Assembly: GCA_018222605.1 (NCBI GenBank)
Contig: JAAEZZ010000006.1
Coordinates: forward strand, 82,071-146,070
Origin: Alphaproteobacteria bacterium
GTDB lineage: Bacteria > Pseudomonadota > Alphaproteobacteria > Caulobacterales > Hyphomonadaceae
DNA: 64,000 bases
Direction of reading: 5' to 3'
The translations under genes were made by a program, and so were the position numbers. This document shows positions 44,810-47,566 of this stretch, piece by piece. Under the pieces are notes generated by a model that saw only the letters and a list, made by a program, of their open reading frames with translations, searched no databases and had not been told where the DNA came from. Every line of letters begins with the position of its first letter. Within the stretch, counting starts at the first letter, position 1.

Positions 44810-46300
44810 ATGTTCGATATCCGTGCCATCCGTGAAAATCCCGACGCATTCCGCGCCGCCTGGAACCGGAAGAAGCCGGGCCTGGGCGACTCCGTAGACG
44901 AGATCCTTGCGCATGACGCCGCCGTCCGCACGGCAGTGACCGACAAGCAGGAAGCCGAAAAGGCTCGCAACGAAACCTCCAAGCTGATCGGAAAGGCGAA
45001 AGCCTCTGGCGATGAGGCGGAGTTTGAACGCCTGCGCAAGGTGGTGGCCGATGCCAAGGAAACCATCGAAGCGGCTGGAGAGCAGGAAGAGGCTGCACGC
45101 CAGCTGCTGGACGATCTGCTCTATGGCCTGCCGAACATCCCGCTGGACGAAGTGCCGGACGGCCAGGACGAAGACGGCAATGTCGAGCAAAGCCGCTGGG
45201 GCGAGCCGAAAGCCTATGATTTCGAAGTGAAAGACCATGCCGACCTCGGCGAGGCGCTCGGCATGATGGATTTCGAGACGGCGGCGAAGATGAGCGGTGC
45301 GCGCTTTGTGCTGCTCTCCGGCAAACTCGCCCGTCTGGAACGCGCGCTCGCTGCCTTCATGCTGGATGTGCAGACGGAAGAACATGGGTACACGGAATGC
45401 TCTCCGCCACTGCTGGTGAAGGACCAAGCGCTGGTCGGCACAGGGCAATTGCCGAAGTTCGAGGAAGATCTCTTCAAAACCTCAGCAATAACCCGACTAG
45501 GATTGGAACAATACGCTATAGAAAGTGCGAATGAAGTTGCGGATTCTATGGAAGCTGAAGTCGCGTCGGGAAAGATACCCGAAGGTGTCAATGAAAAAGA
45601 ATATCTTGCAGGATGGCGTGCGGGACGAGAAGACTTTGTAGAGAGGCAGGCGCAGGCATACCTGCAAGGTTTGAAAGAGCTATTTGGAAGTTCTCATTTC
45701 CTGATCCCCACCGCTGAGGTCCCTCTCACAAACATCGTCCGTGAAAGTATCATTGAGGCTGACTATCTGCCGCGCCGCTATACCGCGCACACGCCATGCT
45801 TCCGCTCAGAAGCGGGCAGTGCGGGGCGTGACACGAAGGGCATGATCCGCCTGCACCAGTTCAACAAGGTAGAGCTTGTGTCCGTGGTTGCGAACCTGGA
45901 AGATGGCCTGCAGGAGCTGGAACGGATGACAGGCTGCGCCGAGGAAATCCTGAAGCGCCTGGACCTGCCGTTCCGCCGCATGCTGCTCTGTGCCGGCGAT
46001 ATGGGGGCAGGGGCACGCAAGACCTATGACCTCGAAGTGTGGCTGCCGAGTCAGGACACCTATCGCGAGATTAGCTCTTGTTCCTACTGCGGAGACTATC
46101 AGGCCCGCCGCATGAATGCGCGCTATCGCCCGGAAGCCGGCGCGAAACCTGAATTCGTCCATACACTGAACGGTTCCGGCCTCGCTGTCGGCCGCACATT
46201 GGTGGCCATTTTGGAAAACTACCAGAACGCCGACGGCTCCATCACCGTACCGAAAGCCCTGCGCGGCTACATGAACGGCCTTGAGGTGATTTCGGCTTAA
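44810..46300 (+). CDS. serS: Seryl-tRNA synthetase with internal ~72-aa insertion
   Basis: [68 protein letters not shown]; insertion 45482-45697. Confidence 0.94.
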
Positions 46301-46301
46301 G

Positions 46302-46419
46302 GCCCCCTCCGCCCTTCGGGCACCTCCCCCGCAGGCGGGGGAGGATTGCATGCCGCGCATATACTCTTATCCTCCCCCGTTCACGGGGGAGGTGGCCCGC
46401 TTCGCGGGTCGGAGGGGGC
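46302..46419. repeat. Inverted pair of GC-rich REP-like palindromic units
   Basis: Left 46302-46345 and right 46369-46419 are imperfect reverse complements, each with an internal hairpin; ~23 nt spacer. Confidence 0.85.
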
Positions 46420-46421
46420 AC

Positions 46422-46787
46422 ATGCGAGAGGAAGAGAAACATACTATCCGGCATGCGAGACGCCTTCGTCGCACTATGACACGTGCGGAGGTGATCCTGT
46501 GGCAAAGCCTTCGCAAACGGCAATTGGCCGGTTATCGATTCCGCCGTCAGGTGCCCATTGGGCCATATGTGACTGACTTTGCCTGCCTTGATCCAAGGCT
46601 GGTGATAGAGGTGGATGGTGCCACGCATTCTGAAGAAGACGAAGTGGCTTATGACGAAAGGCGAACGCGTTTCCTTCAGCAGAAGGGGTGGCATGTATAC
46701 CGTGTCTGGAATACGGACATATACGAAAATCTCGGTGGTGTGTTGGACGCCATTCTCCACCAGTTGAGATTTGCCAAGAGTGGCTGA
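46422..46787 (+). CDS. DUF559/Vsr-like endonuclease-domain protein
   Basis: LRRTMTRAEVILWQSLRKRQLAGYRFRRQVPIGPYVTDFACLDPRLVIEVDGATH; ORF can extend to 46350 through the palindrome. Confidence 0.85.
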   Translation: MREEEKHTIRHARRLRRTMTRAEVILWQSLRKRQLAGYRFRRQVPIGPYVTDFACLDPRLVIEVDGATHSEEDEVAYDERRTRFLQQKGWHVYRVWNTDIYENLGGVLDAILHQLRFAKSG

Positions 46788-46804: not shown

Positions 46805-47566
46805 ATGAAAATTCTGCTGACCAATGATGATGGCATCAACGCGCCGGGCCTGGCTGTGCTGGAAGAGATCGCGCGGGAGATTTCGGATGATATCTGGATC
46901 GCTGCGCCGGAAGAGGAACAGTCCGGCAAGGGCCGTGCCATCTCGCTGACGCATCCGGTGCGCACGCGCAAGGTGGGCGACAAGGCCTGGGCCGTGGCGG
47001 GCACACCGTCTGACTGCGTGCTGCTGGCAACGCATAATCTGATGCCTGAGAAGCCTGACCTTGTGCTCTCCGGCGTCAATCGCGGCCAGAACATTGCCGA
47101 GGACACAAGCTTTTCCGGCACCATCGCCGGCGCCATGTTCGGCATGCAGATGGGCATTCCGTCGATTGCGCTCAGCCAGGCGCAGAGCTTTCGCGAGCGC
47201 GGCTCTCTGCCTTGGGATACAGCCCGCAAATGGGGCAGCAAGGCGCTGAAGCCGCTGATCGAAACCGGCTGGCCGGGCGATGTCGTCATGAATGTGAACT
47301 TCCCGGATGTGGACCCTGACGATGTCAAAGGCATCCAGGTGACTCGTCAGGGCTTCCGGGATGAATCCATCATCCATACCGACCGGCGCGAAGACCTGCG
47401 CGGCAATGATTATTACTGGATCGGGTATCGCGGCAAACGCTCCAAACCTGCTGAGGGCACTGATCTGCGCGCGATTTATGATGGCTATGTCTCCATTTCT
47501 CCGCTTCATGTGGACTTGACGCATGAAGTGTTCCTCAGGACGCTGCGGGAGATATGGAAGAGCTGA
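46805..47566 (+). CDS. surE: 5'/3'-nucleotidase SurE
   Basis: MKILLTNDDGINAPGL. Confidence 0.95.
   Translation: MKILLTNDDGINAPGLAVLEEIAREISDDIWIAAPEEEQSGKGRAISLTHPVRTRKVGDKAWAVAGTPSDCVLLATHNLMPEKPDLVLSGVNRGQNIAEDTSFSGTIAGAMFGMQMGIPSIALSQAQSFRERGSLPWDTARKWGSKALKPLIETGWPGDVVMNVNFPDVDPDDVKGIQVTRQGFRDESIIHTDRREDLRGNDYYWIGYRGKRSKPAEGTDLRAIYDGYVSISPLHVDLTHEVFLRTLREIWKS

Follow-up and report, generated by a model that had tools for sequence, protein, structure and literature searches.

Organization of the serS-surE junction

The window, that is, the whole stretch of 64 kb of DNA that was analyzed, contains between serS and surE a pair of short units followed by a gene for a DUF559 protein. The first-pass annotation had described two GC-rich inverted units with internal hairpins right after the stop codon of serS, and these are present as written in sequence, pattern and folding. 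The features of the locus are the following:

44810–46300, plus strand: serS, the upstream neighbor and boundary gene of the insertion site (ORF; Pfam seryl-tRNA synthetase domains)
46302–46346, minus strand: triplex-type unit 1, class A, with its head to unit 2 and its tail to serS (sequence; minus-strand pattern match; own-genome copy L006)
46303–46310, minus strand: tail of unit 1, GGAGGGGG on the minus strand, mirror of the purine arm GGGGGAGG (sequence, mirror scoring)
46323–46344, minus strand: main hairpin of unit 1, 10-bp stem (hairpin search)
46347–46368, no strand: spacer of 22 nt separating both heads
46369–46419, plus strand: triplex-type unit 2, class A, with its tail to the DUF559 gene (sequence; pattern match)
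46371–46392, plus strand: main hairpin of unit 2, CCTCCCCCGTTCACGGGGGAGG, 10-bp stem (hairpin search)
46395–46410, plus strand: small second hairpin (linker) of unit 2, GCCCGCTTCGCGGGTC (sequence; folding)
46411–46418, plus strand: tail of unit 2, GGAGGGGG, exact mirror of the purine arm GGGGGAGG (10/10 including the flanking CA)
46422–46787, plus strand: DUF559 (PF04480) gene for a predicted PD-(D/E)XK nuclease of 121 aa, with an alternative start at 46350 (Pfam, homolog starts, catalytic residues, fold match)
46805–47566, plus strand: surE, the downstream neighbor (ORF; abuts or overlaps serS in most congeners)

Units 1 and 2 are thus arranged head-to-head (inverted), 22 nt apart, between serS and the DUF559 gene; in a common orientation they read ATCCTCCCCCG-TTCA-CGGGGGAGG-TGGCCCGCTTCGCGGGTC-GGAGGGGGC and ATCCTCCCCCG-CCTG-CGGGGGAGG-TGCCCGAAGGGC-GGAGGGGGC. 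The unit pattern has two matches in the window and none in 100 dinucleotide shuffles, the 118-nt unit region folds far more strongly than its shuffles (z −7.25), and this is the sole strong C/T-G/A hairpin pair within the 64 kb. The genome-wide count of the palindrome that had been suggested at first pass, obtained as all our genome-wide unit counts by pattern searches, gave three full-pattern copies in the 3.7-Mb genome, two of them being the window units. The third, also of class A, is a solo unit (L005 1500-1545, G000:C3) adjoining genes that resemble those for an HK97-type capsid and a head-tail connector, as in a gene-transfer-agent or prophage-like cluster; class-A units are found at a comparable location in H. 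atlantica (L260).

The DUF559 ORF had been described as able to begin inside the palindrome. An ATG does exist there, at 46350, and the ORF could open at it, although nothing shows its use; since the homologs from Hyphomonas atlantica and H. oceanitis align from MREEEKHT, the most likely start is the ATG at 46422, directly after unit 2, and for the same reason the fusion of palindrome and ORF is probably untranslated. The window has units on the 5′ side of the DUF559 gene only, and the H. atlantica and H. oceanitis loci contain a 3′ unit as well. Separately, serS carries at positions 45480–45700 of the window an in-frame insertion of around 70 aa with a lower GC content and no Pfam match, and around 204 nt of it are missing in the sister genomes G040 and G042.

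The units follow a purine-motif triplex code in their predicted fold

In its predicted fold, each unit consists of a polypyrimidine/polypurine hairpin and of a tail in which the purine arm of this hairpin is mirrored, following the code of a purine-motif triplex. Both window units share with the BoxC/PIT/TM repeats this type of hairpin, with 10-bp stems, as well as the mirrored third strand, the tail of unit 1 matching its arm at 9/10 positions and that of unit 2 at all ten. Among 160 C/T-G/A hairpins found near DUF559 genes, 141 have an adjacent tail at ≥75% match. Mirror identity of the tail is 0.87 to its own purine arm vs. 0.76 to the arms of other loci, taken on the same flank, and the own arm is the better match in 146 of the 160 hairpins. 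A third strand that is a direct (0.81) or a Watson-Crick/inverted (0.70) copy of the arm scores below the mirror and was discarded. In the 141 units, the tail base opposite an arm G is G in 96.6% of cases (82.5% in the flank-shuffled control), and that opposite an arm A is A or T in 96.7% (73% in the control); in the latter position the tail has A in 63% and T in 34%, and in shuffled flanks T drops to 6% and C increases to 18%. These proportions correspond to the code of a purine-motif triple helix. Alternatively, the G-rich strand of the units may, judged by its sequence, fold as a G-quadruplex; for the E. coli unit, however, the literature favors the triplex, by NMR (PMC4666352).

Class-A units, the type of the window, contain between arm and tail a small second hairpin of 12–19 nt, whereas the gap between arm and tail in class-B units (CCCTCACCCC-GG-CCCCTCTCCC-n-GGGAGAGGGG) is of 2–3 nt only. 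The ITxF search rule sets a limit of 1–6 nt for this second loop, which class-B units respect and class-A units exceed; therefore, the window units, while BoxC-like in their fold code, are an extended variant and not strict members of the BoxC/PIT/TM repeats, and the search of Holder et al. (2015) would miss class-A units.

The DUF559 protein is a predicted PD-(D/E)XK nuclease

The product of the DUF559 gene matches profile PF04480 with an E-value of 1.5e-37 (128 bits vs. a curated cut-off of 20.6). Its first-pass assignment to a Vsr/PD-(D/E)XK-like group agrees with its fold and with its acidic residues, but the protein scores only 21.5 bits with the Vsr family profile (TIGR00632), below the cut-off of 97.85. 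An AlphaFold2 model (pLDDT 83) matched with Foldseek the structures 3HRL (4e-8), the catalytic domain of I-Bth0305I (3R3P, 1.4e-4) and Vsr (1VSR, 1.2e-3). In addition to this fold, the acidic residues characteristic of PD-(D/E)XK enzymes (E, D and E-x-D) and a H are near-invariant: R8, E15, W19, D44, E55, D57, H61, D70, and R73 (domain numbering) are conserved at 97–100% in 158 domains without an internal stop. Because of this near-invariance of the catalytic residues in domains free of stops, the DUF559 protein is predicted to be a nuclease that has been maintained active, and not a relic.

Scanning of contigs with the single protein yielded six relatives only, and the wider set was gathered by PF04480 profile searches. 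A DUF559 match is present in 22 of 42 congeners, which is a patchy distribution. The window's genome additionally has a weak DUF559-like match within an 800-aa ORF (L004, G000:C7:175222-175356).

DUF559 genes are linked to units

Hairpins were detected without a consensus (stem ≥8, loop ≤8, GC ≥75%). A unit-like hairpin occurs within 300 bp of the DUF559 gene in 37 loci of a first set of 50, which comprises the window's family and six named relatives, and in 59 out of 90 loci from other Pseudomonadota, vs. 3/30 for PIN genes of the same family and 2/12 for Y1_Tnp genes used as controls (DUF559 vs. PIN, Fisher p = 3e-8 for the first set and 1e-7 for the other Pseudomonadota). Since most loci from outside the genus are the best-scoring PF04480 matches, these fractions hold for well-conserved DUF559 genes; around one third of the DUF559 loci are without a strict unit-like hairpin. 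Bins of 250 bp located farther from the gene were at background (0–8%), except for 12% in one adjoining bin. Likewise, flank-to-flank repeats were found in 113 of 158 DUF559 loci, 106 of them inverted, vs. 5 of 30 PIN loci, with one inverted. The expectation of the first-pass annotation that DUF559 genes lie nearer to the repeats than by chance is borne out: 17 of the 110 class-A/B hairpins from eight congeneric genomes are within 300 bp of a DUF559 domain, vs. 0.05 expected. The arrangement is also oriented, with the tail of the nearest unit pointing at the DUF559 gene in 85 of 105 sides (p = 1e-10). An artifact due to terminators or to accessory genes was discarded on the basis of the PIN control genes.

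Individual loci showed further particularities. One PIN (VapC-like) gene has a class-A unit on either side, the two units being 860 bp apart (L127, G022:C1:1846354-1847237); its genome contains a class-A DUF559 gene elsewhere, and the PIN gene is possibly cargo of the same system. Genome G038 contains two DUF559 copies (L053, L054) that are 97% identical and have long flanking repeats in common; the hairpin loop of their shared unit has the same insert of around 30 nt, which contains an inverted repeat.

Unit sequence follows the DUF559 clade

In pairs of DUF559 genes from different genomic contexts, the frequency of an identical 8-nt arm core is 77% at >70% aa identity, 64% at 60–70% and 9% at 30–50%. 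The nearest protein neighbor from a different context has an identical arm core in 56 of 102 cases (shuffled mean 13, maximum 29), and a tree of 71 context-independent DUF559 proteins needs 29 changes of arm type, vs. a shuffled minimum of 41. DUF559 genes that coexist in one genome and are <50% identical (aa) never share an arm (0/14), whereas those in different genomes with ≥55% aa identity do so in 104 of 159 comparisons; therefore, the host genome does not explain the sequence of the arm. Units vary in sequence with the clade of their DUF559 protein, and not with the host genome. Each of the three DUF559 genes in the window's genome has a unit family of its own.

Insertion polymorphism and unit load

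Among the 30 congeners examined, most have serS and surE adjoining or overlapping one another. The junction of these two genes contains class-A units and DUF559 in the window's genome (G000), H. atlantica and H. oceanitis; in G040, G042, and G015 it contains a pair of class-C units without a nuclease gene, and in three further congeners a class-B unit pair. Units and DUF559 are insertions at this site. The flanks of G000 and G040 are 92–96% identical right up to the insert on both sides, and the change is thus confined to the junction; the G000 flanks are less identical to those of H. atlantica than to those of G040. Acquisition of the whole serS-surE segment from a distant donor was ruled out by this same identity up to the insert. 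At a second boundary, the DUF559 gene of G043 lies between units and is accompanied by an 87-bp direct duplication (L244), and G047, G064, and G065 have one solo unit of another type and no DUF559; at a third, G040 retains a decayed remnant of the C4 DUF559 gene (L330), which is intact in G000. In the comparison of empty sites that had been envisaged in the first-pass annotation, serS-surE is free of any insert in most congeners, but no exact empty/filled pair of one and the same element and unit type could be assembled at the compared boundaries, because the unit families at one boundary differ among relatives. We did not find a clean, consistent target-site duplication at the compared loci; the ATGAG on either side of class-C pairs may be a stop/start overlap.

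Genomes with DUF559 contain a median of 14 units vs. 2 in those without it (p = 3e-5, or 0.007 after subtracting 3 units per gene), p-values that treat related genomes as independent and are indicative only. Some unit-rich genomes are now without DUF559 (e.g., G058, with 8+24 hairpins), and therefore gene loss or another driver is needed.

DUF559 genes and units in other bacteria

DUF559 genes with flanking units also occur in Deinococcota and Cyanobacteriota, as examples and not as a statistical sample. In Deinococcus plasmids, DUF559 has inverted units on both sides and is located within clusters of hpa and paa genes (L317-L320), and three of these plasmids (L317, L319, L320) have it at different positions of the same hpa catabolic cluster, with units flanking each copy. 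Cyanobacterial flanks contain CCCCCAATTCTGGGGG-type units with AGGGGG tails, most clearly in L322. Copies from Sinorhizobium, Sphingomonas, and Neisseria have flanking units too (L324-L327), the Neisseria copy being, with 100% identity, the protein of the solved structure 3HRL. Two Sinorhizobium genes (L324, L325) are bracketed by complete unit pairs of around 130 bp, which we take to resemble RIME-type repeats. In E. coli K-12, a BoxC-like hairpin includes the stop codon of ycjD, and 167 nt downstream of this gene there is a canonical BoxC/TMECO unit (CCCTCGCCCCTCTGGGGAGAGGGTTAGGGTGAGGG).

Relation to known systems

The units resemble BoxC/PIT/TMECO repeats in their hairpin and third strand, with G.G-C, A.A-T, and T.A-T triads, and in being intergenic, often in inverted pairs, and present in many genomes. 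Holder et al. (2015; PMC4666352) reported such repeats in more than 260 genomes, together with triplex formation in vitro, the unit of E. coli being the only one for which CD/NMR demonstrated it, and a raised local instability; these authors encountered no mobility-providing activity next to the E. coli units. Neither “DUF” nor “endonuclease” occurs in the text of that article, and we found no published link between DUF559 and the repeats among open-access PMC papers, subscription-only or unpublished reports being outside the scope of this search.

With REP/BIME/REPIN-RAYT systems (PMC2817692, PMC3116915), the units share short palindromes in inverted pairs and a solitary nuclease gene that is bracketed by, and co-varies with, its cognate units, DUF559 occupying here the place of RAYT. 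The partnership analogous to REP-RAYT that the first-pass annotation proposed is accordingly well supported genetically, because DUF559 genes are near the units and unit sequence co-varies with the clade, in the way that REPs co-vary with RAYTs. Its term REP-like suits a short palindromic inverted pair, but the units are of the BoxC/PIT triplex type and not REPs: DUF559 is of the PD-(D/E)XK type and not a Y1/HUH tyrosine transposase, and its units are of the polypurine triplex type without the GTAG foot.

Vsr and the EDxHD homing endonuclease I-Bth0305I share with DUF559 the fold found by Foldseek and active-site residues of the PD-(D/E)XK type; nevertheless, the window protein is below the Vsr family cut-off, is without a known homing site or intron and is bracketed by its own repeats. 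DUF559 loci resemble insertion sequences and MITEs in that a single gene often has inverted repeats on its flanks, in having putatively non-autonomous unit pairs and in their patchy insertions, but the DUF559 cassette is without a known transposase domain or a consistent target-site duplication, and its “ends” are foldable units, often with extra alternating copies. VsrA of Caulobacter crescentus is likewise a DUF559-domain nuclease, reported to be functionally tied to a cytosine methyltransferase, and was studied as a mismatch-repair-like enzyme, repeat linkage not being discussed in the parts of that article used here (PMC12907096); because of the tie to the methyltransferase, it suggests a repair role for some DUF559 members.

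A candidate partner for triplex-type repeats

In our best reading, DUF559 is a co-evolving nuclease partner that spreads or maintains triplex-type repeats, and the insert at serS-surE is probably a copy of a mobile cassette, consisting of a solitary DUF559 nuclease gene bracketed by its cognate BoxC/PIT-class units. We infer that the nuclease would recognize its own unit, probably extruded or single-stranded at a fork or in supercoiled duplex, and would nick or cut at or beside it; repair or recombination could then copy the cassette, or the unit pair alone, to other intergenic locations. Units that occur singly or as a pair would be non-autonomous derivatives, and the overall process would be homing-like or REP-RAYT-like, with a different chemistry.

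DUF559 could instead be cargo of units that are moved by an unlinked enzyme or by host repair and that repeatedly pick up a beneficial nuclease gene. We regard this as unlikely: units do bracket other genes, as the PIN gene of G022, and there are unit pairs without DUF559 (L064, L082), but cargo would neither make the unit sequence track the DUF559 clade across genomes nor account for the specific position of DUF559 between units in Pseudomonadota, Deinococcota, and Cyanobacteriota, and PIN genes are bracketed far more rarely. Somewhat less probable still is that DUF559 acts as a Vsr-like repair or maintenance nuclease for replication-blocking hairpins or triplexes, protecting the cell without moving the units. 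Such a role would be consistent with the Vsr-like fold of the model, with the stalling of polymerases by BoxC/PIT units in vitro (PMC4666352) and with VsrA, which causes SOS induction upon loss of its methyltransferase partner (PMC12907096); nonetheless, a repair enzyme acting in trans would not require a position between its substrates, co-variation by clade with several unit families in a single genome, with none of 14 arms shared, would not be expected, and the gene is missing from many congeners.

It is highly improbable that the units are ordinary terminators or folded RNA elements lying by chance near small accessory genes; although they are GC-rich intergenic hairpins, they occur on the 5′ as well as the 3′ side of the gene, lack a T-run in the window and carry the mirror-tail triplex code, hairpins are rare at the PIN and Y1 controls, and BoxC/PIT units had no terminator activity in earlier work, as cited in PMC4666352. 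Equally implausible are REPs moved in trans by a RAYT (Y1/HUH) transposase with DUF559 as incidental, since, even if alternating inverted units look like BIMEs or REPINs, the window's genome contains no Y1 transposase gene (PF01797), which is present in only 10 of 41 genomes of the family, Y1 loci are not flanked by units (2/12), and both window units lack a GTAG or CGTC tetranucleotide at the hairpin foot.

Returning to DUF559 as the nuclease partner of the repeats, its pairing with units is found again in three phyla or more, and the sequence of the repeats varies along with the tree of the enzyme; this suggests a type of mobile element that is widespread and has been overlooked. More tentatively, and with somewhat less than even confidence, we propose a multi-phylum class of elements in which a homing/Vsr-type PD-(D/E)XK nuclease would recognize the triplex or hairpin of a clade-specific repeat and copy repeat, gene and sometimes cargo to intergenic places, independently of HUH enzymes. 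The BoxC repeats of E. coli are unexplained, and the results suggest DUF559 as a candidate enzyme for these as well.

No origin, mover or function has been assigned to the BoxC/PIT repeats since they became known in the 1990s, and the large DUF559 family is listed as of “unknown function”; linking them gives each a testable role, including in E. coli K-12, with ycjD and 23 reported BoxC-type copies. If true, this would be a second, chemically unrelated answer to the question raised by REP-RAYT, namely how short palindromes are spread by a solitary nuclease, and DUF559 may be a natural enzyme specific for triplex DNA.
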